Shown: in pieces, positions 515-17,490 of the stretch
Layout of the letters: every line of letters starts with the position of its first letter
Numbering within the stretch: the first letter of the stretch is position 1
Virus record (IMG/VR): IMGVR_UViG_3300007734_000514
Span: 1-25,672 of that record
Strand: one strand, 5' to 3'
Source: a virus
DNA: 25,672 nucleotides
Notes under the pieces: model-generated
What the model was told of the DNA's origin: nothing
What the model saw: only the letters and a program-made list of their open reading frames with translations
The model's database searches: none
Made by a program: the position numbers and the translations under genes

Positions 515-759
515 GCGACCGCCTTTTCAATCTGGCTGACGTAATCCTCAAACGCCTTTGCCTGCTCAGGCAACAGGATCGTCGGCACCGCGTCCTCAAG
601 TTCCTTGATCTTTTCAATCGTGAACATAATCTCGTCCCACGACGGTTTCGGTCGCGGGTCTTCCCAACGGGTGATTTCGCGGTTGCTGATTTCCCATTTT
701 GCACCGGGACGCAGCAAGTGCATCGCCGTATCAATGCCCATTAGTTGATAAGTTTTCAT
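511..759 (-). CDS. Small tail-assembly-chaperone-like protein (82 aa)
   Basis: A small acidic protein with a central segment RWEDPRPKPSWDEI (about residues 31-44) followed by a predicted helix rich in Glu, Ile and Leu. A Trp-x-Asp-x-Arg-Pro-x-Pro-(S/T)-Trp signature followed by a helix is common in small phage proteins encoded directly after tail fibres, often annotated as tail-fibre assembly chaperones. Its ATG overlaps the TGA of the glycine-rich adhesin gene (ATGA) and its own TGA overlaps the GTG of the oxygenase gene. The position right after the adhesin supports a role in folding or attaching that adhesin, but this is inference. A different-frame ORF over the same DNA (471-734) is not supported. 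Confidence 0.68.
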   Translation of the reverse strand: MKTYQLMGIDTAMHLLRPGAKWEISNREITRWEDPRPKPSWDEIMFTIEKIKELEDAVPTILLPEQAKAFEDYVSQIEKAVA

Positions 760-3137
760 GTGAAGTTGACCTTGAGAATTACGATACCGGAACCGCCTGC
801 TGCGCCGTTGGTTAATGCGGAGTTTCCACCGCCACCGCCACCACCGCCGCCGGTATTTGCACTTCCTGCGGTGCCATTACCATTTTGCGAACCTGCACCG
901 CCGCCTCCTGTGCCACCCGCGCCGCCACCGCCACTTAAATAATTTCCACCACCACCGCCGCCGGCATAGGTGACAGAACTGCCGGAAATAGATGATGCGG
1001 TTCCATTTCCTCCCGCGCCGCCACTAGCACTAGAGTTTCCATTTGCTCCGGTTGCTCCTGCGCCGCCGCCACCGCCTGCCGAATAATTGCCGCTCCATGA
1101 GCCTGCTACGCCACCACTATTGCCCTGCGACGGCGATACGCTTGGCGCATTACCCGCCCCAGCAACACCTGTGTATGATGCTCCACCGCCAGAGCCTCCA
1201 GCGCCGCCATCTCCATTGGATACGCCGGCTGTGCCGCCGCCGCCCCCTCCGGTTGAAGTAATGGTGCTAAATACGGAGTTATTACCTGTAGAGCCAGCTC
1301 CCGTTGATGCATTTGATGATGCACCTGCTGCACCAACGGTGATCGTGTACTCAGTTCCTGCGGTAATAGCCAATGCTGTGCCAGTACGCATACCACCAGC
1401 ACCGCCGCCTCCGCCTACATTTCCGCCACCACCGCCGCCTCCGGCCACAACGAGGTAGTCAACGCTGACCGCACCAGCCGGTGCAGTCCACTTCTGCGAT
1501 GACTTGAAGGTGAAGATCGTGGCAGAGCCGATGTTGTATTTGAGGATGACGATGCCGGAGCCGCCGGTATTTCCAGCAGAGTAGTTAGAACCGCCTCCGC
1601 CAGACCCACCGCCGGTGTTGGCCGTTCCTGCCGTGCCAGCAACACTTGCTCCGCCGCCTGCGCCGCCGCCTCCAGTACCACCCGTTGATCCTGTGCTGCC
1701 GCCGCCGCCGCCGCCGCCAGCATAAGTAACGCTACCGCCAGAAATGGACGATGCGGTGCCATTTCCTCCATTACCGCCTGTGTTAACGGAGCCATTTGAA
1801 CCAGCTGACGTAGCACCGCCGCCGCCGCCACCGGCAATGCCAACACCATTCAATTCGCCTGCGCCACCATTTGACCCCTGCGACGGACTAACTGACGGCG
1901 TATTACCAGTTCCCGCTGCTCCGCTTATTCCTTGCCCACCGCCCCCAGAGCCTCCGTTTCCACCAGATGCGCCACCGGGAACTGATCCACCCCCAAGCCC
2001 ACCACCTGTGCTGGTGATGGTGCTAAATACGGAATCACTCCCTTTGCCGCCAGATGCAGAACCGGGATTGCCTCCCGGCCCTGCGGAACCACCGCCGCCG
2101 ATAGTAACGGTGTAATCGGTTCCAGCCGTAACTGATAACCCTGTTCCAGTTCTAAAACCACCGCCACCACCACCGCCGCCAACGGTTCCACCACCACCGC
2201 CGCCACCCGCCACCACAAGGTACTCAACCTCGGTGACGCCAGTCGGTGCAGTCCATGTGCCGCTAGAGGTAAACGTGGCTACGACGCTCTGTACGGGTAC
2301 GCTGTACTTGAGGATGACGATGCCAGAGCCGCCGGAACCGCCGTTTGCATTTTGGCCTGCGCCATAGTCATTGCCTGCACCGCCGCCACCGCCTCCGGTA
2401 TTTGCAGAACCTGCCGTTCCTGCTTGTGTCCCCGACTGGTAACCACCAGCACCGCCGCCACCAGCGCCACCGCTTCCTGCTGGGCCGGGGGCGCGAGAAG
2501 CGCCGCCACCACCGCCTGCATAGGTTACGGACGAACCAGAAATAGACGAGGCTGTGCCAGCGCCGCCGTTTCCTGCCGTTCCGCCCGGAGTGGTTACGTT
2601 TCCTCCCGCAGCACTAGCCCCGCCGCCACCACCACCGCCATATCGCGGATCAACCGCAATGGTGCCGGGGTTTGAACCTCCGGCGCTGCCTTGCGATGGA
2701 CTAACAGAGGGCGTATTTCCAGACCCGCCCGATCCAGCGCCTACTCCACCTGCGCCGCCACCAGAGCCGCCATTGCCGCCGGCAGTTGAATCTTTACCGC
2801 CGTAGCCGCCGCCGGTGCTAGTGATAGTGCTGAATATGGAATCGTTGCCTGCTGATCCGTTGGTGTTATTGACTCCACCAGAACCGCCTGCACCTACTGT
2901 AACGGTATAATTAGTGCCCGCTGTTACGGACAATCCCGTGCCGGTTCTAAATCCACCGGCACCGCCGCCACCCGCGTCGTCAGCGCCACCCCCGCCGCCT
3001 CCGGCGACGACAAGGTATTCCACCTGCGTCACGCCCGTGGGCGCAGTCCAGTTACCGGATGCGGTGAAGATTTTGTATTCGGTGTATGCCGCTGCGCTGA
3101 CCACTTGGCCGAGCAGCAGACTCATAATGCCGCTCAT
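756..3137 (-). CDS. Glycine-rich triple-domain tail adhesin
   Basis: A 793-residue protein made almost wholly of three tandem domains, at residues 24-277, 289-533 and 542-789. Each opens with a beta segment (F-T-x-S-x-x-W-T-A-P, then VEYLVVAGGGGGG or a variant) and closes with GGSGIVILK. Inside each are the same landmarks in the same order: FSTITSTGGG, a (N/A)PSVSPSQG element, TASSISG(S/G)SVTYAGGGGG and long Gly/Ala/Ser/Asn runs. Similar glycine-rich domains occur in tail fibres and surface structures of many environmental phages. The glycine tracts resemble those of the phage S16 gp38 adhesin, where polyglycine-II helices pack into a sandwich; equivalence is inference. A hydrophobic N-terminus (SLLLGQVVSAAA) may be the attachment segment. 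It is the last large tail gene, where receptor-binding proteins often sit. Start choice: first ATG, 3 bp after the previous TAA; only a weak ribosome site. Confidence 0.85.
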   Translation of the reverse strand: MSGIMSLLLGQVVSAAAYTEYKIFTASGNWTAPTGVTQVEYLVVAGGGGGGADDAGGGGAGGFRTGTGLSVTAGTNYTVTVGAGGSGGVNNTNGSAGNDSIFSTITSTGGGYGGKDSTAGGNGGSGGGAGGVGAGSGGSGNTPSVSPSQGSAGGSNPGTIAVDPRYGGGGGGGASAAGGNVTTPGGTAGNGGAGTASSISGSSVTYAGGGGGASRAPGPAGSGGAGGGGAGGYQSGTQAGTAGSANTGGGGGGAGNDYGAGQNANGGSGGSGIVILKYSVPVQSVVATFTSSGTWTAPTGVTEVEYLVVAGGGGGGGTVGGGGGGGGFRTGTGLSVTAGTDYTVTIGGGGSAGPGGNPGSASGGKGSDSVFSTITSTGGGLGGGSVPGGASGGNGGSGGGGQGISGAAGTGNTPSVSPSQGSNGGAGELNGVGIAGGGGGGATSAGSNGSVNTGGNGGNGTASSISGGSVTYAGGGGGGGSTGSTGGTGGGGAGGGASVAGTAGTANTGGGSGGGGSNYSAGNTGGSGIVILKYNIGSATIFTFKSSQKWTAPAGAVSVDYLVVAGGGGGGGNVGGGGGAGGMRTGTALAITAGTEYTITVGAAGASSNASTGAGSTGNNSVFSTITSTGGGGGGTAGVSNGDGGAGGSGGGASYTGVAGAGNAPSVSPSQGNSGGVAGSWSGNYSAGGGGGAGATGANGNSSASGGAGGNGTASSISGSSVTYAGGGGGGNYLSGGGGAGGTGGGGAGSQNGNGTAGSANTGGGGGGGGGNSALTNGAAGGSGIVILKVNFT
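771..3068 (-). repeat. Three tandem ~740-760 bp glycine-rich domain repeats
   Basis: Three in-frame copies inside the adhesin gene, at about 2307-3068, 1539-2273 and 771-1514, separated by short linkers. The copies share landmark segments but differ in length and in the glycine-rich filler, so they are diverged duplications and not recent perfect repeats. On the plus strand they read as runs of cca/ccg/cct, which produces proline-rich shadow ORFs. Confidence 0.85.
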
Positions 3138-4024: not shown

Positions 4025-6022
4025 TCAAGAGATAAACCAAGCGAAGGCATTACTGCCGCCACCGCCACCGCCGCCAGATTGGGCGACCCATGACAAGGTG
4101 CCTGCGCCGTTGGTTTGCAAAACATAGCCATTTACTCCGTCCGCTGTGGGCAGAGTATACGTTGTTGATCCCGCCGCGCTACCCGCCGCAAGTCCGACAT
4201 AACCCGACACCGCACCCAACAATCGCATCGCCGCCATATTGGCCGAGCCGATAGACGCCTGCGTGCTAGTCAGCGTCGTAACCGTGCCGGTCGTTATTAG
4301 CGCCACAGCGGCGTTAATAGAGGCTACCGAGGCTTGCGTTGCCGTGAGGTTTGTCACCACCGCCGTGCCTGCATTGGCCGATGCGATGGAGGCACCCGTA
4401 GCCGTCAAAGTCGTGATTACTGCCACCCCGACGTTGGCCGAGGCCACAGATACCGCGTTAAGGTCTAGGCGGTTGGTGTTGAGCGTGCCGACGTTAGCCG
4501 ATGCGATAGATGCGCCGGTCGCCGTCAAAGCCGTAATTGCTGCCGTACCGACGTTAGCCGAGGCGATGCTGGCTGCCGTAGAGGTCAGGTTAGTGATCGT
4601 TCCCGTCGTGACGAGGGCAACCGCTGCGTTAGCCGAGGCCACCGACGCGCTGGTTGCCGTCAAATTGGTGACGATAGCCGTACCAAGGTTGGCCGAGGTA
4701 ACCGATGCGCCTGTGGCTCGCAGGTCGGTGACATTGGCTACCCCGACATTTGCGGAGGCAACCGATACGCCTGTCAGCGTCAGCGCGGTGATATTGGCCG
4801 TCCCGAGGTTAGCCGAGGCAATGCTGGCTCCCGTTGCGGTCAGGCCCGTAATTACTGCCGTGCCGACGTTCGCAGAGGCCACGGACGCGCCCGTGGCAGT
4901 CAGCGTTGTCACAACCCCTGTGCCGATGTTGGCCGAGGCAACCGATGCCCCTGTAGCCGTTAGCGTTGTTGCAACAAGGTTGCCCGCGTTGGCCGAGGCT
5001 ACGGATGCCCCGGTTGCGGTCAATGTGGTAATGGCTGCGGTGCCGACGTTGGCGCTAGTAACCGACGCCCCTGCCGCACGCAGATCGGTGACGTTGGCAA
5101 TACCAAAGTTAGCCGAGGCAATGGAAACACCCGACAGCGACAAGTTGCCGATGTTGGCTGACGCAATAGACGCGCCGGTGGCCTGTAGGTTTGTAACTGT
5201 GGCCGTCGTGAAAAGCGCGACCGCCGCGTTAATAGACGCGACCGATGCACCCGTGGCGGTAAGGTTGGTGACAACCGCCGTTCCGACGTTTGCGGAAGCA
5301 ATAGAGGCTTGCGTAGCGGTCAGGGTCGTAATGACGCCGACCGTTGCGTTGGCTGAAGCGGCAGATACCGCGCCGAGGTCAGTTTTGCCGGTTACCGTGA
5401 GCGTGCCGCCGACCGACAACGCCGAGGTGATGGATACGTTGGCCTGAAAGCCTGCGTTACCCGTGACCGTCAGCGTGCCGTTGATCGTCGTGTTGCCGAA
5501 CGAGTTGGCGGCGTTAACCATCTGGAAGCGTGTGCCGTCGTACACCACGACCACGATCTCGCCAGAGTTGATGTCACCCGCCGCAAGGGCTGACGCACCG
5601 TCACGGGTCACCGCCTTGGCACCCAGCCCGTCAATGTTGAGCGTCACAGGGCCGGTGTTGGCCCCTGCCGCCACAAAGTAAAACATCTGGCCCGCTGCAT
5701 AAGCCGTCAGAACGGGCGACATCGTGCCGGTGATCGTATCCACGCCGCTCGGCGTGATGAGCTTGACCGCCGTGGACTGCACTTGCGAGAGGTTTGCGGC
5801 GTCTGTCGCCAACGTGCCGACCGCAAGGCCCGTGATCTTGTTGCCGCCCATCGGAATGTTGGCCGTGGGCGTAGTCTGGCCGTCTTTGGTGATACAGGTC
5901 GTCAGACCCGTGGCAAGGTCAGCCGTTAAAGCGTTAAAAACCGTGGCCGAAATGACGGTGTTGGCAACGACAGGCTGCCCTGCCGAGTTGATGAGGAATG
6001 TACCCGAACCGTTAAACGACAT
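4025..6022 (-). CDS. Long tail fibre with 20-residue repeat shaft
   Basis: A 665-residue fibre. The N-terminus (about 1-90) carries GGNKITGLAVGTLATDAANL, typical of phage fibre or collar-binding regions; residues 90-175 form a further beta domain. Residues about 221-595 are a low-complexity shaft of units like TNLTATGASVASANVGTAVV, repeating every 20 residues. The C-terminus has TYTLPTADGVNGYVLQTNG, a common phage fibre-end motif, then a polyglycine stretch and SNAFAWFIS. The start is firm: an AGGAGG site lies 7 nt before the ATG and overlaps the previous stop. Shaft plus terminal domain suggests a trimeric host-binding fibre, as is usual for the class. The regular 5-residue spacing rule in the shaft is described in the findings. 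Confidence 0.88.
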   Translation of the reverse strand: MSFNGSGTFLINSAGQPVVANTVISATVFNALTADLATGLTTCITKDGQTTPTANIPMGGNKITGLAVGTLATDAANLSQVQSTAVKLITPSGVDTITGTMSPVLTAYAAGQMFYFVAAGANTGPVTLNIDGLGAKAVTRDGASALAAGDINSGEIVVVVYDGTRFQMVNAANSFGNTTINGTLTVTGNAGFQANVSITSALSVGGTLTVTGKTDLGAVSAASANATVGVITTLTATQASIASANVGTAVVTNLTATGASVASINAAVALFTTATVTNLQATGASIASANIGNLSLSGVSIASANFGIANVTDLRAAGASVTSANVGTAAITTLTATGASVASANAGNLVATTLTATGASVASANIGTGVVTTLTATGASVASANVGTAVITGLTATGASIASANLGTANITALTLTGVSVASANVGVANVTDLRATGASVTSANLGTAIVTNLTATSASVASANAAVALVTTGTITNLTSTAASIASANVGTAAITALTATGASIASANVGTLNTNRLDLNAVSVASANVGVAVITTLTATGASIASANAGTAVVTNLTATQASVASINAAVALITTGTVTTLTSTQASIGSANMAAMRLLGAVSGYVGLAAGSAAGSTTYTLPTADGVNGYVLQTNGAGTLSWVAQSGGGGGGGSNAFAWFIS
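4238..5362 (-). repeat. 60-bp in-frame repeat array in the tail-fibre shaft
   Basis: The array encodes residues 221-595 of the fibre. The Ser-(Ala/Ile)-Asn landmark recurs 19 times, with Asn at residues 225, 245, 265, 290, 305, then every 20 to 465, 490, then every 20 to 570, and 595. Spacings are 20 residues fourteen times, 25 three times and 15 once. The DNA copies differ at many third codon positions, so selection has acted on the protein pattern and the array is not a recent expansion. Confidence 0.9.
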
Positions 6023-6035
6023 TTCTCATCCTCCT
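6023..6035 (-). promoter_or_regulatory. Strong ribosome-binding site for the long tail fibre
   Basis: AGGAGG (minus strand, 6035-6030) lies 7 nt before the fibre ATG and overlaps the TAG of the upstream ejection-protein gene. It is among the strongest Shine-Dalgarno matches in the window and fixes the fibre start. Confidence 0.8.
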
Positions 6036-7920
6036 ATTCTTGGCCCGCACCAGTTGCCCCAATGCGGCCTGACACTTGCCGTCCAAGCGCCTGCCCTGCG
6101 GCACGGCGGCGCATATATTCCTGCATATTGCGTAACTCTGCTTGTGCAGGTTCGTCACGCAGCATCAATAACTGTGCAAGCCGATTACGCTGCGCTTCTG
6201 GCATACCGTACCGCTGCCCAAAACGCTGCGCACCAGCCATAAATCCTTGCGGGCTTGTTACGGCTTGCCCAACAGACTGTGCCGCTGACAACGCATCAAA
6301 CGCATCGGCTTGATCTTGCGCTTGCGCCAATCGCTTAAACGTCTGAGAGCCGCTTCCTACGCGCTCCAACTTCTTCAGTTCTTCCTGCGCCAAAATCATG
6401 CGCTGAAACTCTCGGAAATCGTTTCCAAAAATGGAGCGCAATTTGCTTTGCAATTCTGGCTCTTTGTACATATTTAGCAAGCGCGTTTGCCCCGCTTGAC
6501 TGCCTGCAACGCCGCGCAACGCATCTACCGCGCCAACTCGGAACGCTTCCAATTCCGATGGGGTCATTTCGTTGGTTAATTTAGACAACGATTCTGATGT
6601 TTCGGACAACGCTTTACGGCCTTGCTCCACCGCTGTCTGCAACTCCGCAAATCCAGCAAAGGTGCTGCGGGCTTTGGCATAACTGGGTGACAATGCGTCA
6701 AGTTTGGCAACCAATGCCAAACGCAATTCATCTAGTTCACCCGCTTCATTGGTTTTGCCTTTATCAAGCGCCGCTTGTCGTTTGTCCCACAATGTGCGTT
6801 TTAACTGATCCGCAGCGGTAAACGGCAATTCATCACCTTCTGCAAGTTTGCGTAACGGAACTTGCGGTTGGCCTCGTCGGGTTGCGCTGCGCTGCGCTGA
6901 TGCCAAATCTAATTTGGAGCGATCAAGAATTGCTTTCAATTCTGCGTCAATTGGGAATGACGTATTTTGCAACGCTTGATACAACGGCCCCGCTGCATCT
7001 GCTTGCTTTTTCGCAAGATCGGTTAATTCATCTTCGGCGGTTTTTCTTACGCCCGTGATTTGTTCGGCGGTTTCTGTAATTGCCCCGCCTCTACCCGCCT
7101 GCACTCTGCGCTGCTGGCGAGTTAATTGCCGCCCTGCTGATCCCGGCAGCTGCGACAACATATCTATTTCTGCAAGCGTGTTGCCGCCTGATGCTGCAAT
7201 TGGCGCTTCTGTGCCAACTTTGCGCAGCCGTGTTGCCGCCATAACGGCTTCTTGTCCCGGCTCCACGCCGCCCATGATACGAGCCTGCGCATCACGCTCT
7301 AACAGTTGTGCGAGGCGTTCGCGTGGGTAATCAGGGCGGACGTTGTACGAACCAACCGTTTCAGGAATCATGCCCAACACGCCTTGCGGCAATCGTGACA
7401 TCGTTGGCGTGATCGCCGCGCCACGAATGGTGCGGCCCAAAATGTCAGCGCCACCGCCTAACACCATGCTAGTTCCAGCGCCCATAGCCGCGCCCGATAA
7501 CCGGTCGCCCTCATCAGCGGCACCAGCACCCGACAATGCACCCTGCGCGGCAAGATCGCCTGCGGTGCGCAATACGCGCCCTGTCGTAGTAACGCCGCGC
7601 CCAAGCGATAACGGGCCAGTAAGCGGGGCCGTGGCAAGGCCGCCTGCCATTTCTAATCCCAATGCCGCCATCGGATTTTGCTGGGCGTAAGTTTCAGTCG
7701 CCCCGCGCACCATTTGCGTATATTGGGGGCCAGCTAACCCCGCCAATTCATCGGCAAAGTTAAAAGTTGCACCTTGTGCCGCTGTTAATGCGGCTTGTGC
7801 ATACGGCGACATTTGTGCGCCACGCTGATAAGCCTCGCTTTTCGGAGCGCCGCCACGCGATGCAAGCCGTGCTTGCGCCGTTGCAATTATTTTCTTTTGC
7901 TCCTCGTCAAACTGACTCAT
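6034..7920 (-). CDS. DNA-ejection / internal virion protein (628 aa)
   Basis: The N-terminal region carries GATFNFADELAGL (residues 50-62), a motif I recognise from ejection or internal proteins of short-tailed phages. A long Gly/Ala-rich hydrophobic zone follows (about 85-165) that could insert into a membrane. The rest is charged and helical, with many Gln, Arg, Lys and Glu. This is the composition of P22 gp16 or T7 gp16-type proteins, which leave the virion during infection and help DNA cross the envelope. I chose MSQFDEE at 7920 because it makes an ATGA overlap with the preceding gene; the 14 extra residues of the longer frame read into that gene. It is the last of four ejection-type genes. 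No lytic transglycosylase motif was seen. Confidence 0.75.
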   Translation of the reverse strand: MSQFDEEQKKIIATAQARLASRGGAPKSEAYQRGAQMSPYAQAALTAAQGATFNFADELAGLAGPQYTQMVRGATETYAQQNPMAALGLEMAGGLATAPLTGPLSLGRGVTTTGRVLRTAGDLAAQGALSGAGAADEGDRLSGAAMGAGTSMVLGGGADILGRTIRGAAITPTMSRLPQGVLGMIPETVGSYNVRPDYPRERLAQLLERDAQARIMGGVEPGQEAVMAATRLRKVGTEAPIAASGGNTLAEIDMLSQLPGSAGRQLTRQQRRVQAGRGGAITETAEQITGVRKTAEDELTDLAKKQADAAGPLYQALQNTSFPIDAELKAILDRSKLDLASAQRSATRRGQPQVPLRKLAEGDELPFTAADQLKRTLWDKRQAALDKGKTNEAGELDELRLALVAKLDALSPSYAKARSTFAGFAELQTAVEQGRKALSETSESLSKLTNEMTPSELEAFRVGAVDALRGVAGSQAGQTRLLNMYKEPELQSKLRSIFGNDFREFQRMILAQEELKKLERVGSGSQTFKRLAQAQDQADAFDALSAAQSVGQAVTSPQGFMAGAQRFGQRYGMPEAQRNRLAQLLMLRDEPAQAELRNMQEYMRRRAAGQALGRQVSGRIGATGAGQE

Positions 7921-9149
7921 CGGGCAAATCTCCGACGTTCGTCCAAAGTCATTTCTGCCCACACTTCGGGAGCAATGCCCTCTGGCGGTTTGATTGGTGC
8001 GAGCTTGTATTGCGGGCCAGCACTCAACGCTAATCCACGCAATGCGGATTCACGAGCGCGGCGCTTTTGCTCCAATGTCCGTTCATCATCGCCAGTCATT
8101 GGAATGTATGTTTTTGACATTGTTGCAATTTCGGTATCAGGAATGTTTGCACCTGATTCTTTACGCGCAACGGCGGTGATGAAGTTAAGCGCGGCTTGGT
8201 TGAACTGACGATTTTCTGGCGATTGCAGCACATTGCCAACGCCCGGAACTGACCCTTTTGCGGTTGCCGAGATGGTAGGCGGCGGCAAAATGTCCAAAAG
8301 CGGAGCCGCTTCCGACATACGATCAGCAAACAATGCTGATTTTGCTTCCTCGGTTCCCGGCGCTTCAGGTTTTGGTTTTACGTTGGGAATGATGCTAGGT
8401 GCGCCACCCGTTCGGCTTGGCTGGAAATAAACCGGATTGCCTTGCGCGTCTACACCAGCAACCGGAGCGCCATACGACACATCTACATTGGTTTTCGGCG
8501 TGCGGCTCGCAATAAATTCTTTATACCCCGGCGTTGTTTGTGTTAACTCAAACTCTTGAAATGAAGTTGGCGGTTCTGCTTTTGGTTTGGTAACGCCATT
8601 TAAATACCGAATTTGCCCCGCTTTGTTGATAACAAATGCGTTGCCCTGTGCGTCGTATTGTGGCGTTGTGCCGTACTCCGCCTCACTTGGCGCTTTCATC
8701 ATTTCCGCAAGACGCGCCGCCATGATTGGGCGATTTTTCAGCGCAGCCGTGCCAATACTCGTTGATGCCATTGCAGCGGCCTCTGCTGGATCGCGCCGAT
8801 ATTTGGCTTCCAATACGGTCGGCCCTTCTTCGCCAATGGCCTCTATCACCGCAGGACGTCCGCCGCTCATGCGGCCTTCCATGCGCCGTGCGTATTCTTC
8901 CTCTAACTGCCCCGCTTTGGACGCGGCTTCCTCGGCCTGTCGTCCAGCGCGAGCGGTCAGGTAGCCCTGCAACGCCTTAACAAGCGGTGCGGCACGCGGG
9001 ATCGGGGCAGCTGCGCCCTCCATCGGCTGATATTCCTGCTGCGCAAGGGCTTCTGCCAGCGCCTTCTGCCGACGCGCACGCTCTACCTCAAGTTCGTACT
9101 CGGTCGGTGCGCGAAACGTGCTGACGTATCGGGGTCTATTCTGCGCCAT
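7917..9149 (-). CDS. Internal virion / ejection-associated protein (410 aa)
   Basis: A mostly helical, charged protein. The N-terminal third is rich in Glu, Arg and Ala (EYELEVERARRQKALAEALA), suggesting coiled coil. The middle is Pro/Thr/Gly-rich and probably flexible. Near the C-terminus are FITAVARKESGANIPDTEIA and MTGDDERTLEQKRRARESAL, a pattern that recurs in internal proteins of podovirus-like phages. It sits between the Met/Pro-rich small protein and the large ejection protein, with a 14-nt overlap upstream and an ATGA overlap downstream. The frame also permits a TTG start at 9155, but AGAGGAG lies 9 nt before the ATG at 9149 and only 3 nt before the TTG, so 9149 is chosen. The exact function is unknown. 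Confidence 0.72.
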   Translation of the reverse strand: MAQNRPRYVSTFRAPTEYELEVERARRQKALAEALAQQEYQPMEGAAAPIPRAAPLVKALQGYLTARAGRQAEEAASKAGQLEEEYARRMEGRMSGGRPAVIEAIGEEGPTVLEAKYRRDPAEAAAMASTSIGTAALKNRPIMAARLAEMMKAPSEAEYGTTPQYDAQGNAFVINKAGQIRYLNGVTKPKAEPPTSFQEFELTQTTPGYKEFIASRTPKTNVDVSYGAPVAGVDAQGNPVYFQPSRTGGAPSIIPNVKPKPEAPGTEEAKSALFADRMSEAAPLLDILPPPTISATAKGSVPGVGNVLQSPENRQFNQAALNFITAVARKESGANIPDTEIATMSKTYIPMTGDDERTLEQKRRARESALRGLALSAGPQYKLAPIKPPEGIAPEVWAEMTLDERRRFAR

Positions 9150-9537
9150 CGTCAAAATCTCCTCTGTACCGACCGCCCTGCGGGGTCGTCATGCCGGGAG
9201 AAGAAACCCGGGGGCGTACCCCCATGCCGACCTGCGGGGAACGCATCGGCGCGTTACGCGGTGCGCCCATGCCCATCATTCCTGTGCCGCCCATGCTCTG
9301 GCTGTAGCCAAACGGGCGACCGCCCTGCATGGCCTGCGGAGGGCCGTTAAAATTCATGGCCTGCGGCGGCACGCCGGGGGCGACGTTTGGCGTCGGCTGT
9401 GCGTAACCGAGTCCTGCCGTCTGGCGATACGCCATGTCACGCTGGCCCGGGGGTGCGTTCAGCGAGGAATTGCGCTCTTGCATGGCAAGCATACGCGCCA
9501 TCTGCTGCGGCCTACGATCTGGTTGAAAACCGTTCAT
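9136..9537 (-). CDS. Met/Gly/Pro-rich small virion-associated protein (133 aa)
   Basis: A low-complexity protein rich in Met, Gly, Pro, Gln and Arg, for example MGGTGMMGMGAPRNAPMRSP, with no hydrophobic core, signal peptide or membrane segment. The N-terminus (MNGFQPDRRPQQMARMLAMQ) could form a short helix; the rest looks disordered. Its ATG directly abuts the TAA of the 807-residue ejection protein, and its end overlaps the next gene by 14 nt, so it is locked into the ejection-protein cluster. I do not recognise a family. A disordered partner or packing protein of the ejection complex is a guess from position. Confidence 0.65.
   Translation of the reverse strand: MNGFQPDRRPQQMARMLAMQERNSSLNAPPGQRDMAYRQTAGLGYAQPTPNVAPGVPPQAMNFNGPPQAMQGGRPFGYSQSMGGTGMMGMGAPRNAPMRSPQVGMGVRPRVSSPGMTTPQGGRYRGDFDDGAE
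9150..9165 (-). promoter_or_regulatory. Ribosome-binding site deciding the 9149 start
   Basis: AGAGGAG (minus strand, 9165-9159) has 9-nt spacing to ATG 9149. The upstream in-frame TTG at 9155 lies too close to it to be used. The site sits just inside the C-terminal coding end of the previous gene. Confidence 0.75.
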
Positions 9538-11961
9538 TTATGGGCCTCCAAATAAGCCTTTGCCGATAGCGCCGCCGAGCGGGCCGCCGAGTGCCGTACC
9601 TGCTGCGCCAGCAAGGCTACCAAGTAACCCCATGCCCGCGTTATAAGAGCCTACTTGGTTCTGGTAATTGCGCTGTGCAAAGTCGCCTGCCGCCTGACCC
9701 GCTTGGAATATCGGCGCGGGGGCGACGCTGACGCCTTGGTAGCCTTGGAATTGCGGTACAGCCACCTGACCGCCAGAAAGCAACGCGCTGATCTCGTTGA
9801 CCGGCAGCGAGCGGATCGCGGCTTGTTGAGCAAGTGCCTGCTGCACAGCCGTGTTGTAAAACTGCTGCTGCGCAAGGTTTTGCTGGAACTGTTGCTGCGT
9901 GGCTTGGTTGTTCGCAGCAATACGCGCCTGCTGCTCTGCAAACCGTTGCGCAATAGCGGCGTTTCTTGCCTCTTGCTGCTGCACAATCTGCTGGAACATT
10001 TGGCCTTGTGTGGCGTTCTGCGCCTGCTGACGCGCCAACTCCTGCTGCATGGCCTGCGCCTGCGCTTGGTTGTAAAACTGCGCCTGTTCGCGGGACTGAC
10101 CGGCCTGCTGGGCCTGTCGGGCAAGGTTAAGTTCTTGAGCAGCCTGCTGTTGCGCAAAGTTCTGCGCAATGGCTTGGTTATACATCTGCTGCTGCTGCGC
10201 GCCTTGACCAAAAATCTGCTGTAACGCAGCGTTTTGGGCTTCGGTGGCAGACAACCCTTGCTGGAAGTTTTGTGCAACGGCTCGGTTGTACGCTTCGTTC
10301 GCTTGTTGGCCCATGCCAAACTGCGCAAGAAGCCCGGCGCGGTTAAATTCCTGTGCGCCCAAAGCCTGACCAAAACCCTGACCCAATGCGGCGTTTTGCG
10401 CCTGTTGCGCGGCTAACGCCTGCTGGAAGTTTTGGCCAACGGCTTGGTTTTGCGCTTCCTGCGCGGCCTGTGCCTGTGCAAAGTTTTGTGCGATAGCGCG
10501 GTTTTGCGCCTCTTGCGCCTGTTGACCCGTCTGGAACGAGGCCAACTGCGCCTCACGGCCAAACTCACCGGCCTGCAGCCGCTGCTGGAACGCCTGCTGC
10601 TGCGCCTGATTCTGCGCGGCCTGCGTGGCGAGGGCTTGCTGCACGTTCTGGCCGAGGCCGACGTTGTACAGCCCCGCCTGTTCCATGCCCGCCCCAAAAC
10701 CCTGCAACTGCGCCTGATTGGCAAACATGGCGCGGGCCTGCTGTTCAGCAAACCCCTGCTGGCGAGCGGCTTGGTCAAGGCTGATGCCCTGCGCGGCGGC
10801 TTGCAGTAGCAGATCGTTTTCTTTCTGCATCTGCGCCGACATCGCGGCGTTAAAGGCTTCACCGCCCGGGCGTAAGCCTTGGTTAATGAGCTGCGTGTAA
10901 AGCGCCTGACGTTCGCCCTGCAACTGCGGGGTAAGGCGCGACATGATGGCCTGCTGCGCCGTTGTGCCTGCCTGCACGGGGGCAGCCGCAAGCTGCGATA
11001 CGTCTATCTGCCCCTGAAGCTGCGGCCCGCCTACAAACTGTTGGGCGTAGCCAAACTGCCCTTGTGCGGGCGCTGCTTGCGGGCCGCCAAGGCCCGTAAC
11101 GTCAAGTCCCTGCAAGTTAATGCCCTGCGGGCCACCGCCTGCAAGGCCAAACATTCCATAGCTCGGGCCGCCGCCTGCCATGCCGAACGCTTGCCCCGAC
11201 GGAGCAGCCTGCGGCGCAAACGGGCCAGCATCTGCACGACCTAAATCGGTTGGTGCAGCAGGGCCAGCGACAGCGCGTTCTATGCCCGTTGTGTATGGCA
11301 GGATCGCGCCTTGCACGGGCAAATTAACGGACGCCTGCTGGCCTGCCCCCATTTGTCCCGGCAAACCTTCGGTGTAATACGACCCAGCGGGCGTGTAAGC
11401 CGCCGTAGGCGCGTTCATTAACCCCTGATTGGCATACCCAATGTCGGTGTAGCCCGGGGTTTCCTGCAACATTGTGTAGCGTTCAATGCCGCCCGCGTAG
11501 GGCAGGTCGTACCGCAACCCGGGCAAACTGCGTGCATCAAACGCCGATGCAATCCCAAGGTTTTGCAACCCGCCTGCGGCACCGGCGGCAGCCTGCGACA
11601 TTCGCAGCTGCGCAAGTTCCTGCTGACGCAACGCCTGTTCGGCTTCCGCGCTAACCGTTTGCCGTACTGTCGGCTGCTCAATGTAGCTGGTAAATTGCTC
11701 TTGAGTCGGTTCTGGGCCGCCGTAATCAGGCCCATACTGTGCTTGTCGGTCGTAGTACGCCTGCAACGCTTTCTGGTATGCGTCGGTATCTACCTGCGGG
11801 GTCTTTGTCCAAGTGACCGTCTGGCTGCCTTGTGGGGTGTATATGTTCGGATTGGACATATACGCCGACTGCTTGGCAGCGGCCAAATTGGCTTCACCCT
11901 GCTTAATCGCAAGGGTTGCGTAATCAGGTGCCGGTGGCGGTGCCGGTGATTTTTTGCCCAT
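9538..11961 (-). CDS. Large Gln/Ala-repeat ejection (internal virion) protein
   Basis: An 807-residue protein. Residues 1-60 (MGKKSPAPPPAPDYATLAI onward, then NPNIYTPQGSQTVTW) resemble the N-terminus of a family found in many podovirus-like phages after the tail nozzle. Residues 150-330 are Gly/Pro/Gln-rich. Residues 340-394 include TQLINQGLRPGGEAFNAAMS, another landmark of that family. Residues 395-718 are 18 gap-free 18-residue repeats rich in Gln, Ala and Asn, predicted to be one long helix. The C-terminus (775-807) is a Gly-zipper-like hydrophobic segment (GLLGSLAGAAGTALGGPLGG) that could enter a membrane. Head-ejected proteins with helical bodies and membrane-active ends are known from P22 and T7; assignment here is by context. 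A GGAG site precedes the ATG, and the gene overlaps the GNAT gene by 38 nt. Confidence 0.78.
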   Translation of the reverse strand: MGKKSPAPPPAPDYATLAIKQGEANLAAAKQSAYMSNPNIYTPQGSQTVTWTKTPQVDTDAYQKALQAYYDRQAQYGPDYGGPEPTQEQFTSYIEQPTVRQTVSAEAEQALRQQELAQLRMSQAAAGAAGGLQNLGIASAFDARSLPGLRYDLPYAGGIERYTMLQETPGYTDIGYANQGLMNAPTAAYTPAGSYYTEGLPGQMGAGQQASVNLPVQGAILPYTTGIERAVAGPAAPTDLGRADAGPFAPQAAPSGQAFGMAGGGPSYGMFGLAGGGPQGINLQGLDVTGLGGPQAAPAQGQFGYAQQFVGGPQLQGQIDVSQLAAAPVQAGTTAQQAIMSRLTPQLQGERQALYTQLINQGLRPGGEAFNAAMSAQMQKENDLLLQAAAQGISLDQAARQQGFAEQQARAMFANQAQLQGFGAGMEQAGLYNVGLGQNVQQALATQAAQNQAQQQAFQQRLQAGEFGREAQLASFQTGQQAQEAQNRAIAQNFAQAQAAQEAQNQAVGQNFQQALAAQQAQNAALGQGFGQALGAQEFNRAGLLAQFGMGQQANEAYNRAVAQNFQQGLSATEAQNAALQQIFGQGAQQQQMYNQAIAQNFAQQQAAQELNLARQAQQAGQSREQAQFYNQAQAQAMQQELARQQAQNATQGQMFQQIVQQQEARNAAIAQRFAEQQARIAANNQATQQQFQQNLAQQQFYNTAVQQALAQQAAIRSLPVNEISALLSGGQVAVPQFQGYQGVSVAPAPIFQAGQAAGDFAQRNYQNQVGSYNAGMGLLGSLAGAAGTALGGPLGGAIGKGLFGGP
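9808..10779 (-). repeat. 54-bp (18-residue) in-frame repeat array, 18 copies
   Basis: Residues 395-718 of the ejection protein divide into 18 consecutive 18-residue units without a gap, such as AQNRAIAQNFAQAQAAQE and AQNQAVGQNFQQALAAQQ. Position 3 is Asn in 14 of 18 units and position 10 is Phe in 14 of 18, with Val, Ala, Met or Leu in the others. The DNA copies are diverged. The array creates several long antisense ORFs that are artefacts. Confidence 0.9.
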
Positions 11962-12367
11962 ACCGAGGCTCCAAGAAACGACACTTGTCGGGTGTCTGCG
12001 TCATCAAAACAATATCTCCAGAGTCATGCGCGGCGTCCTTTATCCGCGCTTCTTCCGAAAATCCCATCTTGCTGACCAATGCGAGCGCCCGGGTATGGTT
12101 GCTGCTTATTGGCCCTATGATCTTATCAACATTTGCGACGTTGTACGCATAGTCATACACCGCCGCCATATACGCTGGGGTCACCCGCTGCCACGCAATG
12201 TGGCAAACCACGGATTTCCCGTTCCAGTTTTCGTATACCGTCCCGGCGACCAACGCGCCGTCACGCTCCAATCCGATAGCGACCGACCGCTCAGGGTCAA
12301 ACGCCCCTTCGGTCTGCGCCGTAACCCATGCCCCCACTTGAGGGCCGCTGACTATATTCCAGCCCAT
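11924..12367 (-). CDS. GNAT-type acetyltransferase fold protein (147 aa)
   Basis: The protein has the shape of a GNAT domain: a beta strand pair around SVAIGLERDGALVAGTVYEN, a helix VTPAYMAAVYDYAY, and the C-terminal half SSNHTRALALVSKMGFSEEA (residues 88-107), where Asn then Ala-x-x-x-x-Lys-x-Gly-Phe is the usual end of the acetyl-CoA fold. The glycine-rich CoA-pyrophosphate loop (Q/RxxGxG/A) is not obvious, so it may be structural and not catalytic. It ends in CRFLEPRYGQKI. GNAT-like proteins at this place, between nozzle and ejection genes, are common in podovirus-like phages. I chose MGWNIVSG at 12367, which overlaps the nozzle gene by 16 nt; a longer frame to 12400 overlaps it further. 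Function unknown. Confidence 0.72.
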   Translation of the reverse strand: MGWNIVSGPQVGAWVTAQTEGAFDPERSVAIGLERDGALVAGTVYENWNGKSVVCHIAWQRVTPAYMAAVYDYAYNVANVDKIIGPISSNHTRALALVSKMGFSEEARIKDAAHDSGDIVLMTQTPDKCRFLEPRYGQKITGTATGT

Positions 12368-13929
12368 CCGAGTTGATACACCACATCCGTTGAGGCCCAC
12401 TCCAACGACACGTTTTTACTGCTGCTGTTGAAGATGATGCCGCCGCAATATCCGACGCCGCTCAACCCGACGACCGTGTTATTGGCAATCGTGTTGCTGC
12501 CCCAAATGGCCTGATCCCAAAGTCCCACATCCCATAGGCCGTAGTTGGTCGCCACAAACGAGAGCGCACCGAGGAAGTCATCGGTTTGGAAATCCACGGC
12601 GATGCCGACGCCAATGGTCGGCTGGCCGTTGCTATATGTCGTGGTGCGCCCACGGGTGAAGTATTTGATGACGCCACGGGTGTCAAAGTAGTTAAAAGCC
12701 TGCAATGCCTTGGTGTTGATCGCTTGGTTGTTGTCGTTGTACCCGGCTGACCCCGTTCCCGTTGTCCATGCCTTTGCAACGTAACCGTCGCTGCCGAAAT
12801 AAAGTTCGTTGTTGAGCAACGACCAACAGTTCGCATACCAGCCGGTAAACCGACACCACGCCTTAGTGATGTTGTTCATCACAAACTGCTGTTGCGAGCC
12901 GCTGCCCGTCGGAATGTTGACAATTAGGGCATTGTTGAGCGGGTAATACTGCAACGCCCAACCGTGATTGTCTTTGTAAGTGCGTGCGGCAATCGCAAAC
13001 GCGCCTTGAATCTTGTCCGACAGCGCCACGTTGGGATCAAGCCGTGACGATTGCAACGCCGAGGCAAGCGGCACAAGGCCATCCAGCGTCAGCACAAGCA
13101 AGTCGCCGCCGTACTTCATCAGGCAACGCCGTGAGATCGGCGCACCGACGATCCACACGCCGATCAGCGCCCATGTGGAGGCGCTAGAGGGATCGGTGCC
13201 GCGATAAACGATGACTTCGCCCTTGTCGGTGACAAACACAAGGTTGTCGTCAACGCCGTAGCCTGCGTCAATCGTCCACGTTGCCATTGCAACAAGTTTG
13301 CCGCCCAACTTGGCAACCGAGGACAAATCAAGTGATTGTGCCGCACCGCCCACCGATGCCGTCGGTAGATACCACGCTTTCAACGTGTCCACTTGAATAA
13401 ACCACATCCTGTTCTTGAACAGGGTGGGTTGCATCAGCGAGGTGGTTGTGACCCCTGTGATAGCGGGTGTGGATACGCCGTCAATCGCCGTCCAGTTTGT
13501 GCCGTCATACAGCAGCGGCTTGTTGACGCCATTAGCTGCGTACAAATACCCGCCTGCCGAGGTCGTGATATTGGCGGCTTCCCAGCGGCTATTAGATAAC
13601 CCGCTGACCTTGGCCGCGCCAACTGCCCCTGCCGACGTAACGTCGTAAATATTGCCGCCGACGATGGCAAAAAGCTTATCCGTTGACCCGGCGCTGTACT
13701 CCATCAGGGTTTCTATTTGCCCTGTCATGCCGGTGGCGTGTTTGTCGTAGCCACCGCGCAACGTCACGCTGGAAACGCCGGGGAACAAGTTGTCTAGCGT
13801 TACCGCGTCCGTCGGGGCCATGTTGGCGAGCGCATCGCGGGCGTTCCAGCCGCCCACGGGGGCGGGGAGCGAGGCCACATTGGCCTGCGTGCGCTGAATC
13901 AACCGACTGCGACGAACGGGCGAGGCCAT
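12352..13929 (-). CDS. Tail nozzle / packaged-DNA stabilisation protein (P22 gp10-like)
   Basis: A 525-residue beta-rich protein. The N-terminus (LPAPVGGWNARDALANMAPT, about residues 21-40) followed by DAVTLDNLFPGVSSVTLRGG is the recognisable opening of podovirus tail-nozzle proteins. After it come beta-propeller-like segments with repeated aromatic-Gly patterns (LFAIVGGNIYDVT, GGYLYAANGVNKPLLYDGTN, DNLVFVTDKGEVIVYRGTD). P22 gp10, the equivalent, is 472 residues. Such proteins form a hexameric nozzle under the adaptor and hold DNA in the filled head. The start shares a TAATG overlap with the adaptor gene, and the order adaptor-nozzle fits the assembly order. The family assignment rests on pattern recognition, not on an alignment. 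Confidence 0.78.
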   Translation of the reverse strand: MASPVRRSRLIQRTQANVASLPAPVGGWNARDALANMAPTDAVTLDNLFPGVSSVTLRGGYDKHATGMTGQIETLMEYSAGSTDKLFAIVGGNIYDVTSAGAVGAAKVSGLSNSRWEAANITTSAGGYLYAANGVNKPLLYDGTNWTAIDGVSTPAITGVTTTSLMQPTLFKNRMWFIQVDTLKAWYLPTASVGGAAQSLDLSSVAKLGGKLVAMATWTIDAGYGVDDNLVFVTDKGEVIVYRGTDPSSASTWALIGVWIVGAPISRRCLMKYGGDLLVLTLDGLVPLASALQSSRLDPNVALSDKIQGAFAIAARTYKDNHGWALQYYPLNNALIVNIPTGSGSQQQFVMNNITKAWCRFTGWYANCWSLLNNELYFGSDGYVAKAWTTGTGSAGYNDNNQAINTKALQAFNYFDTRGVIKYFTRGRTTTYSNGQPTIGVGIAVDFQTDDFLGALSFVATNYGLWDVGLWDQAIWGSNTIANNTVVGLSGVGYCGGIIFNSSSKNVSLEWASTDVVYQLGWAGI

Positions 13930-15410: not shown

Positions 15411-16236
15411 ACAGGTTGTTGACCTGTGTTACGGTGCAGATAACTGAAGGAATCGCAGGCCATACGCTTGTGGCGCTGGCTGCGAGGATTCTAGCGTTTG
15501 TGGTATCGGTTGCCCACATCAACTCAACGTAGTTGGTTGGCTCTAATTGAATAATGAAGTTCCACGCAGCGACCAACCGCGCCGAGGTTCCTTGCAACGC
15601 AACCGTACTGGCTGAATTTGGCACATTTGTGCCGTTTTTACGCAGCCAAATGTAGACGTTTGCCGTGCCGCCCGAGGTTTCGTCTAACTGAGCCGAAAAC
15701 TGGACGTTGTAGACGCCTTGATTAGCGACGACAAGGCGCGAGGTCGGCGACCCGATAGATACGCCATTGCTGCTATCGGTCGTGTTAAACGTCATGGCAT
15801 AGGCGGTATTGATGGAGGCCGCCGTCTGCAACGTAGTGTCCGAAAACGAACCGTAATGCAGAATCGGCACCGCCGAGTTAAAGCCTTGCAAACCCTCCCA
15901 ACGGCTATTGCTCACGGCAAAAAATACTGCCGAACAGCCAATATTTACCGTTGAGGACGACCCGCCGTCTATTTGCGTGGTGGATTCATACGGGTGAACG
16001 GTTAGCGCGTTTGCGCCCGAATTTGTTACCCAAATTGTCTCGCCCATCTCGGTTGGCGGGAGTTTAACGCCTGCGCTAGAGCCAACCGTGGTGACGTTGT
16101 TGTAAACGTAAGTAATCGCGGTGGCGTTTCCCGCTGATGTACCGGCTGCCGTCACCGAGGCATTGCCGTCGCCACAAATGGACACGGTGGACAGGCTGTT
16201 AACGCCTGATCCCAAAACCCTGCTAGGAATTGCCAT
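15409..16236 (-). CDS. Head-fibre-like / C1q-like beta-domain virion protein (275 aa)
   Basis: Two beta-rich halves. Residues 1-120 include TEMGETIWVTNSGANALTVH and CSAVFFAVSNSRWEGL, a pattern of phage surface proteins. Residues 126-275 look like a C1q/TNF-type jelly roll: ASINTAYAMTFN, GVYNVQFSAQLDE, ANVYIWLRKNGTNVP, then a long strand AAWNFIIQLEPTNYVELMW. Such domains form trimers on head fibres and tail tips. The gene lies among head genes after the capsid and DUF115 genes, so a capsid-attached fibre or decoration is the likely role; tail attachment cannot be excluded. TAATG overlap with the gene before it fixes the start. Confidence 0.7.
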   Translation of the reverse strand: MAIPSRVLGSGVNSLSTVSICGDGNASVTAAGTSAGNATAITYVYNNVTTVGSSAGVKLPPTEMGETIWVTNSGANALTVHPYESTTQIDGGSSSTVNIGCSAVFFAVSNSRWEGLQGFNSAVPILHYGSFSDTTLQTAASINTAYAMTFNTTDSSNGVSIGSPTSRLVVANQGVYNVQFSAQLDETSGGTANVYIWLRKNGTNVPNSASTVALQGTSARLVAAWNFIIQLEPTNYVELMWATDTTNARILAASATSVWPAIPSVICTVTQVNNL

Positions 16237-17009
16237 TACGCGGCCTTGCGCTGATCGCGCACGCGCATGATTTCGGCAATCAACCCCGGGCCTTTAACGT
16301 CTACCGTTATATCGCCCATCACATCAAACAGTTTCTGGAATTCGTTAGCCTGCTGCGCCATTGCCATGTTGCAGTTGAACTTTTTGCCTGTCGGGCCGCC
16401 GACAAACACATCAATGGCAGGGCCGGTGACATCGCCCGTAAACCGCTTAACCCCATCCGCACGGTTGCAGGAGTCGTAACCGTATAGCGTAAAGTTACGA
16501 AACCCGAGCAGGTAACCGATGTTGACCGCCCGTAAACCCGAGGTTGTCCCGCCGCCTACGGCCAGTTTGTTCGGGCCAATGGCCGCCATCTCTGGGCCTT
16601 CTGCCCATGAGTGCCACAGCAGTACCTTGCGGCCTTTGAGGTAATCAAACGTGGACGGTGGGCAGCGCGAGGCTGGCATATACACCGTATGGTCGTTAAG
16701 CCGCTGGATGCCGTTTGTACGGTCACGCGGGTCAAGATTGACCCACATATCAGGGTTAACGCCGTTTTCCACTAGGAAGTCGTGTGCGGCCTTTACAGCC
16801 ACAATCGGGCGACCGGCTCGGCGGTGCGCCTTGATCTCGTCAATGTAGTCAGGCATAGACCACCCGCTCGCCACCAAGACAATGTTGCCATCGTGCTTGA
16901 TGGGAGCGAGGGTCAGTTCTGGTAGACCACGGCCAAGCGCAGAGCGGATGTTGGAGCAAAGCTCCTCTGCCGTACCTGCTGCCTGTACCGTGATCTCCAG
17001 AGGCTGCAT
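16236..17009 (-). CDS. DUF115 / MptE-like protein inside the head operon (257 aa)
   Basis: The sequence matches the DUF115 (PF01973, 6-hydroxymethylpterin pyrophosphokinase MptE-like) pattern: a nucleotide-binding-like loop after a strand (NIVLVASGWSM, residues 42-52), then helix, then NPDMWVNLDPRD (85-96), then GGGTTSGLRAVNIGYLLGF (152-170) and LYGYDS (175-180). In archaea MptE transfers diphosphate to a pterin; bacterial relatives such as Maf proteins act in flagellin glycosylation. The phage version's substrate is unknown. I chose MQPLEI at 17009, 4 bp after the previous stop; an upstream ATG at 17057 adds only an Arg/Ser-rich stretch inside the preceding gene. No good ribosome site is seen, so it is probably coupled. 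An oddity for a morphogenesis block. Confidence 0.72.
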   Translation of the reverse strand: MQPLEITVQAAGTAEELCSNIRSALGRGLPELTLAPIKHDGNIVLVASGWSMPDYIDEIKAHRRAGRPIVAVKAAHDFLVENGVNPDMWVNLDPRDRTNGIQRLNDHTVYMPASRCPPSTFDYLKGRKVLLWHSWAEGPEMAAIGPNKLAVGGGTTSGLRAVNIGYLLGFRNFTLYGYDSCNRADGVKRFTGDVTGPAIDVFVGGPTGKKFNCNMAMAQQANEFQKLFDVMGDITVDVKGPGLIAEIMRVRDQRKAA

Positions 17010-17013
17010 CGGA

Positions 17014-17490
17014 TTAGAACCCGACGACGCCCGTTGCAACGTGCGGGTAGCCCGCAACGCAGGTCAACGCGGTAGCGCCAGAGGCCGTGGTCAGGGCAAC
17101 GATGCCCTCAACCAGACCGCCAGTTACCGTGGCGTCGTCAAGCGTTCCAGCGGTGGCCGTCGTAAAGAGCGGAACCGCCGGGAGGCATGACGCAGCGAGG
17201 TTAACAACCGGCTTGCCGCCCAGCTGCACCCAGCCATACGAGGCCGAGGCAATGGACGCCTGCGCAAAGCCAACGGCCTTGCTGTTTGCCGAGTTGGTCG
17301 TGGTGAGCGGCACCACGGTGTTGTCACCTTTCACCGAAACGGCCATGTAGGTGCTGACGGTAGATGCCGCCTGCACATAGATCGCCTGACCGCCATCGTC
17401 AAGGTTGACGGTGGTGCCAACCTTAAACATCGGGCTGGTGTCGGTGTAGCCAAGGGACACGCCAATCAAATTTGAAGTAGAAACAGCCAT
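17014..17490 (-). CDS. Capsid decoration-like protein (158 aa)
   Basis: A small all-beta protein rich in Ala, Thr, Val and Gly with no Trp/Tyr-rich core, encoded directly after the major capsid protein. Landmarks are FKVGTTVNLDDGGQAIYVQA, then YMAVSVKG, KAVGFAQASIAS and GWVQLGGKPVVNL, a layout resembling DUF2190-type head decoration proteins, which sit on the capsid surface and stabilise it. The start has an excellent AAGGAG site 9 nt upstream that overlaps the capsid stop codon, consistent with high expression. A head-completion role is the alternative. Confidence 0.68.
   Translation of the reverse strand: MAVSTSNLIGVSLGYTDTSPMFKVGTTVNLDDGGQAIYVQAASTVSTYMAVSVKGDNTVVPLTTTNSANSKAVGFAQASIASASYGWVQLGGKPVVNLAASCLPAVPLFTTATAGTLDDATVTGGLVEGIVALTTASGATALTCVAGYPHVATGVVGF

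Follow-up and report, generated by a model that had tools for sequence, protein, structure and literature searches.

Paired repeat arms in a podovirus-type virion protein: whole-unit changes in an 18-residue array are matched by a co-varying linker, suggesting an antiparallel hairpin of variable length

The window analysed here, the whole of a 25.7-kb record of an uncultured virus, carries podovirus-type genes on its minus strand in the order terminase, portal, major head protein, tube A, tube B, an acyltransferase-type gene, the gene containing an array of 18-residue units that is the subject of this work, and two large proteins. No long-tail tube genes were recognised in the window, its portal, tube A and tube B all being of podovirus type. 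The array gene, its predicted parts and its neighbours are as follows.

12352..13929, minus strand: tail tube B, a P22 gp10-like protein (phrog_5107 and named homologues)
11924..12400, minus strand: upstream neighbour, internal virion protein A-like gene of acyl-CoA N-acyltransferase type (phrog_4470; order shared with Mx8, Mx9, Rhizobium and Sulfitobacter phages)
9538..11961, minus strand: whole array gene, 807 aa, phrog_6121 virion structural protein in the internal-virion-protein-B (gp14/gp7) slot (open reading frame, profile match, gene order)
11680..11961, minus strand: N-terminal domain, residues 1-94, of length independent of repeat number (AlphaFold2 pLDDT, rho)
10984..11679, minus strand: putative return-arm linker, residues 95-326, built of Gly-rich modules (GPQGINLQGLDVTGLGG..QFGYAQ type) and gaining about 10.5 residues with each 18-residue unit (linear co-variation, self-repeats)
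10882..10983, minus strand: predicted helix alpha1, residues 327-360 (AlphaFold2 pLDDT about 44-76; counterpart 188-220 in the clade 2 model)
10861..10881, minus strand: putative turn of the hairpin, QGLRPGG, at residues 361-367 (both models break the helix here; alignment)
10780..10860, minus strand: first part of predicted helix alpha2, residues 368-394, ahead of the array (AlphaFold2 helix; near-invariant QMQKENDLLLQAAAQGI)
9808..10779, minus strand: array, 18 units of 18 residues, residues 395-718 (repeat split; unit-exact length change in 79 of 79 homologues)
9541..9807, minus strand: C-terminal domain, residues 719-807; it contains the conserved LPVNEISALLSGGQV and finishes in a hydrophobic, Gly-rich tail whose last residues are GLFGGP (alignment)
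7917..9155, minus strand: 412-aa downstream neighbour occupying the slot of internal virion protein C, of length independent of repeat number
6034..7962, minus strand: 642-aa downstream neighbour (phrog_5880) occupying the slot of internal virion protein D, of length independent of repeat number

The window protein matches the profile of phrog_6121, a family placed in the head and packaging category, with an E-value of 3.1e-23; short named members of the family score from 1e-48 to 1e-137. The gene order typical of phrog_6121 (tube A, tube B, acyltransferase-type gene, family member, large internal proteins) is present in the window, and recurs around homologues of 282-339 aa in Mx8, Mx9, Rhizobium and Sulfitobacter phages, ctMlz233 and Bradyrhizobium ppBjS10J-1. 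The named members Mx8 p54, Mx9 p88, RHph_Y25 QIG74520.1 and pCB2047-C SUBG_00009 share with the window protein the profile, synteny, N-terminal motif, hairpin turn and C-terminal motif. The array gene follows those for tail tube B and internal virion protein A, and so occupies the position of T7 gp14 and P22 gp7 (PMC10386132). Comparisons with T7 gp14 or P22 gp7 in hhalign gave probabilities of 0.1-6.4%, with no sequence or profile homology detected, and none was shown between the upstream gene and single sequences of T7 gp13 or P22 gp14. The assignment is one of gene order and literature, not of our own homology test, and as a statement about the gene slot it supports the initial annotation of an ejection protein.

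Residues 395-718 do divide into 18 consecutive units of 18 residues free of gaps, as first proposed, and their coordinates agree exactly with 9808-10779. Shifted by 18 residues, the sequence matches itself with an identity of 0.337 (z = 8.8 relative to shuffles that preserve composition); shifts of 36, 54 and 72 give z = 8.6, 8.8 and 12.0, and no further lag up to 79 has z > 2.7. The strongest of these, lag 72 (identity 0.44), hints at past copying of four units at a time. The Asn at position 3, which had been picked out as conserved, is found in 14 of the 18 units, as are Ala-5 and Phe-10, and Gln-8 in 16; family-wide, Asn-3 is present in 72% of units, Ala-5 in 81%, Gln-8 in 87% and Phe, Tyr or Leu at position 10 in 85%. 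About 54% of array residues are Gln or Ala, beta-branched residues are few and Pro is absent from every array of the family. Identity between the window's units at the DNA level has a median of only 0.43 (maximum 0.70), and Tandem Repeats Finder reports no DNA tandem repeat at the array. Since the DNA units have diverged in this way, the 18-residue period is not the product of recent DNA duplication, and the claim that a strict length has persisted despite diverged DNA holds good. We found no 18-residue repeats in podovirus proteins in the open-access literature.

Array length among relatives of the window type (clade 1; 722-1152 aa) was measured as the distance between a left anchor, GGEA[FY]N, and a right anchor, LPVNEI, with the window as reference. 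In all 79 distinct homologues this distance differs from that of the window by an exact multiple of 18, with 14-28 units represented and none of the 79 having 20, 23 or 26. The check proposed earlier, whether repeat number changes in whole 18-residue steps among relatives, was thus passed and, because length changes are whole units throughout, selection on the 18-residue length is strongly supported by these comparisons. In the genome collection, a search for members related to the window clade found none.

The Gly-rich segment that precedes the array was measured from a fixed QPTV motif to the left anchor. Its length M follows the relationship M = 81.4 + 10.54 x units (slope standard error 0.08, r = 0.998, n = 79). 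Unit number has changed at least 29 times on a tree of conserved blocks for 78 of the sequences, and independent contrasts on this tree give a slope of 10.36 with r = 0.994. Some 70 conserved residues separate linker from array. The linker's own self-repeat is 32 residues in clade 1 and 10 residues in clade 2 (see below); larger unit counts in clade 1 tend to differ by three units, which matches the 32-residue repeat. The N-terminal domain, ahead of QPTV, does not change in length with unit number (rho -0.04), and among 11 other gene families at the same loci none tracks unit number beyond a few residues. Tube A, tube B, the head protein, the downstream internal proteins and the fibre show no convincing tracking. 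Internal virion protein A varies over only 8 residues (rho 0.33 with units, p 0.003), and a 334-aa head-region protein gives rho -0.61 (p 0.04, n = 12).

The linker of one homologue, L073, is about two modules short, which counts against the explanation preferred below, and this protein looks chimeric. Three others, L097, L098 and L102, have a different N-terminal domain, around 42-47 residues longer, and this seems to have been swapped independently since the ratio of linker to array is unchanged.

Nine short homologues formed too diverse a profile for scanning, and a second clade, of Rhizobiales-type prophages, was found by a scan with the Rhizobium homologue. This returned basal members with an anchor distance of 41 and no array, along with intermediate and long members. 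The latter have anchor distances of 98, 116, 134, 152, 170 and 224, all equal to 8 modulo 18. Among 60 arrays with a distance above 90, 56 equal 8 modulo 18; the other four are off the register and count against our preferred explanation. The clade 2 linker is visibly made of decapeptides, for example QTSLGNAGNI, of which we counted by eye approximately one, four and seven at 6, 9 and 12 units. The N-terminal part measures 183-187 residues in most members at 6 units, 215 at 9 and 245 at 12, and the basal form, with 144-145 N-terminal residues at its anchor distance of 41, falls near the same line. A rate of about ten linker residues per 18 array residues therefore holds in the sequences of both clades. 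Clade 2 relatives are found in Ensifer and Sinorhizobium genomes and in others that are mostly alphaproteobacterial.

The positions of paired insertions give the relative direction of the two arms. For an antiparallel arrangement, an array insertion x residues past the anchor is predicted to accompany a linker insertion 40 + (x - 38) x ratio before the anchor, where alpha1 (about 34 residues) is taken to pair one to one with the start of alpha2. Eight hand-picked insertion events, a first check, fitted with an rms of 6.2; the second check covered every pair that exceeded set identity thresholds. With the threshold at 70%, clade 1 provided 18 distinct pairs (x 96-290, y 69-202, Spearman 0.94), which the antiparallel prediction fits with a median error of 5.4 and an rms of 12.0 residues, compared with 97 if pairing were parallel and 83 if placement were random. 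The 12 distinct pairs of clade 2 fit with an rms of 6.8 residues, against 45 (parallel) and 41 (random). These figures should be read knowing that insertions inside repeats can be placed only to within about half a module or worse, and that the distinct pairs are not all independent. Parallel pairing of the arms is rejected on the insertion positions, which clearly indicate arms that run antiparallel and in register. At the level of sequence comparison, then, the strict unit steps, the proportional growth of the linker in two clades and the antiparallel pairing of insertions are established, and a hairpin that folds back in register is, from sequence alone, very probable. The initial annotation had overlooked both the co-varying upstream segment and the antiparallel register, features that would explain the whole-turn unit more specifically than a helical bundle or channel lining alone.

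Structure prediction gives a partial view of these arms. The AlphaFold2 model of the window protein (41 sequences) has a mean pLDDT of only 42.8 and was not usable for the linker. Residues 327-360 are helical in it, the helix breaks at 361-367, and the array is modelled as long helices of low confidence (pLDDT 33-48); values below 50 over the linker and much of the array count against our preferred explanation. The N-terminal domain is better predicted, with pLDDT 64-86 over most of residues 41-100. In the model of a clade 2 member (56 sequences), a helix at 188-220 is followed by a turn and a second helix at 228-288, and then by a continuous 98-residue helix at 308-405 with pLDDT mostly 66-77; its linker has no resolved fold. 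The hairpin turn, QGLRPGG in the window protein, coincides with an NQGxxxGSEAY-type motif conserved across the family. The proposal that the array is a helix is therefore upheld in part: the absence of Pro, the Gln- and Ala-rich composition and the 98-residue helix of a related array favour it, but the confidence of the window's own array is low. A further proposal, that nonpolar positions form a single stripe, did not survive a Fourier test: hydrophobic power at 100 degrees is 0.3-0.4, against shuffle maxima near 10, and the array peaks instead at 80 and 120 degrees. A simple amphipathic helix is rejected on these grounds. Peaks at 80 and 120 degrees would be expected if the hydrophobic side alternated between two faces in each unit, perhaps one for the linker and one for a neighbouring subunit. 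Foldseek comparison of both models with the PDB gave nothing at E <= 0.001, and the window protein's sequence likewise had no match there. The rows from VIA-align were low-Z helical matches and S74 domains, and the best BFVD matches were proteins annotated with an intramolecular chaperone auto-processing domain.

That last result touches on the C-terminus. Where the window protein ends, in GLFGGP and with no Pfam match to S74, many relatives run on into an S74 intramolecular chaperone domain. Among complete clade 1 members the domain is present in 42 of 70 and absent from 28, L009 and L061 being included in this present/absent set. Those without S74, among them the window protein with its C-terminal end at 9541-9600, stop just before the position of an SDRRLK motif, the expected site at which S74 proteins cleave themselves. 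The named homologues in Mx9 and pCB2047-C also end in S74. The S74 part of the family profile matches structures of a long tail fibre, a neck appendage and MYRF. Fibre and neck-appendage proteins with S74 are trimers as far as known. MYRF is likewise a trimer (PMC8326128). The S74 domains of relatives give a hint of trimers here too and, with so many relatives having one, a trimer would fit better than a hexameric channel.

Gene position invites comparison with T7. After T7 has ejected its DNA, each gp14 subunit is a pair of antiparallel helices with a short loop between them, and the tail channel is extended across the outer membrane by six such subunits (PMC11784390). For a putative hairpin of this kind in the present family, the window and clade 2 models place a helix on either side of the conserved turn at moderate confidence, and the paired insertions support a fold-back. 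The window protein resembles P22 gp7 in its Gly-rich hydrophobic C-terminus. Unlike these proteins it is long, carries paired repeat arrays and has many relatives with S74; gp14-like proteins elsewhere have 181-240 aa and vary little in size (PMC8954989). The basal phrog_6121 members, of about 282-345 aa and lacking both arrays (anchor distance 41 compared with 353 in the window), look like hairpins of gp14-like size. Given these and the T7 precedent, we propose that the window clade has lengthened its channel staves.

With a rise of 1.5 Angstrom per residue, 18 residues of straight helix cover 27 Angstrom, a distance that about ten residues of extended chain can reach. Our preferred explanation, which taken as a whole we consider marginally probable, is of a greatly elongated version of the podovirus gp14-slot hairpin protein. 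At the conserved turn, the short alpha1 would meet the long alpha2. Units of 18 residues, each of five whole turns and some 2.7 nm, would lengthen alpha2, and for every unit the return arm would gain one extended-chain module of about 10-10.5 residues. The modules would dock antiparallel and in register along alpha2. As 18 residues make five whole turns, each unit's docking site could face the same side, and keeping these sites on one face would explain the strict unit length. We infer, with moderate model confidence, that the array is an alpha-helix, and also that the linker is docked along it; both are likely. N- and C-terminal domains would then end at the same base, the turn forming the far tip. 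Several such staves might form a ring-shaped rod, ejected first and extending the short tail, whose length would be set by unit number; the window's long arm would reach about 53 nm if fully straight. Such staves of a variable-length tail-extension channel are proposed by analogy. A straight rod of 53-80 nm would equal or exceed the interior of a typical small podovirus capsid, and this counts against the explanation, as do the lack of detected homology to T7 gp14 or P22 gp7 and the S74 domains of many relatives. It is a doubtful, if possible, further step that an ejected rod adjustable in 2.7 nm increments, with arms in an 18:~10 ratio, amounts to a modular tail stored in a short-tailed virion. 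We know of no return arm or variable repeat number in the phiX174 protein H. It is an amide-rich DNA pilot protein forming a tube that spans the cell wall (PMC7354561); it is unrelated and decameric, and serves here as an analogy for a Gln/Asn-rich conduit.

The serious rival to a channel is a trimeric external fibre or needle, a hairpin rod assembled by S74 and projecting from the tail tip with no DNA conduit, its antiparallel pairing retained and its length set by the surface layers of the host. The C-terminal S74 domains of clade 1, Mx9 and pCB2047-C proteins, and the fibre, neck-appendage and MYRF matches of the profile, speak for this. Nevertheless, the gene follows that of internal virion protein A, beyond the position of the P22 needle gene 26, its product has no detectable similarity to P22 gp26 (hhalign probability 0.1-0.2%), the Q/N-rich array lacks a recognised receptor-binding domain and phrog_6121 is classed under head and packaging. 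We regard an external rod as somewhat unlikely. A composite solenoid, in which stacked layers would each comprise one 18-residue coil and one ten-residue linker strand with no long straight helix, is unlikely: Asn-3, Ala-5, Gln-8 and Phe-10 (63-87% of all units) do resemble ladder positions, and the hydrophobic peaks at 80 and 120 degrees with none at 100 would suit it, but the lack of Pro, the scarcity of beta-branched residues, the abundance of Gln and Ala and the long array helices of both AlphaFold2 models do not.

Less probable again, indeed quite improbable, is a tape measure, with array length setting the length of another structure as in siphophages. The likeness is to TP901-1, whose tape measure protein has aromatic-marked 18-residue repeats, the deletion of which changes tail length (PMC5099701); its length varies by repeats, and aromatic-marked repeats of 11 and 18 residues are carried by siphophage tape measure proteins. 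TP901-1, however, is long-tailed, while the phage here is short-tailed, with no long-tail gene set found, and its repeats have a partner array elsewhere in the chain, which a tape measure does not need. Tube A (302-304 aa) and tube B (520-525 aa) are of podovirus type and constant length, and the lengths of other virion proteins gave no tape-measure signal of substance. Neutral slippage without structural coupling is barely credible and is contradicted by the sequences: both segments are of low complexity, and repeats readily expand and contract, but these are separated by conserved residues and yet correlate almost perfectly after phylogenetic correction, their insertion points pair and the DNA units have diverged.

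The fixed length ratio kept by two separated repeat arrays of one protein, over a two-fold size range and in two clades, amounts to a quantitative rule, and the paired insertion points show how the chain folds back even though no structure is to hand. Should the rod prove to be an ejected channel, repeat number would offer a handle on how podoviruses fit their channel length to the envelope of the cell; T7 and P22 are poorly suited to such a test, as their gp14-like proteins hardly vary in size.

Other genes of the window have features of their own. Upstream of the terminase, 24206-25615 (minus strand) encodes a GNAT acetyltransferase domain (PF13508, E 8.8e-8) and a weak ADP-ribosyltransferase-like stretch (E 3.9e-4, below cut-off). 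An MptE-like gene (PF01973, E 5e-15) lies at 16236-17057 (minus strand), between the head and tail genes. A fibre-like protein of 665 aa (4025-6022, minus strand) has regular 20-residue repeats, with a lag-20 identity of 0.50 over residues 181-580, and the 402-aa open reading frame at 4239-5447 (plus strand) is its antisense shadow. Lastly, the 793-aa protein encoded at 756-3137 (minus strand) contains three tandem glycine-rich domains (PF21722, E 4.6e-74) and is possibly a variable receptor-binding module.
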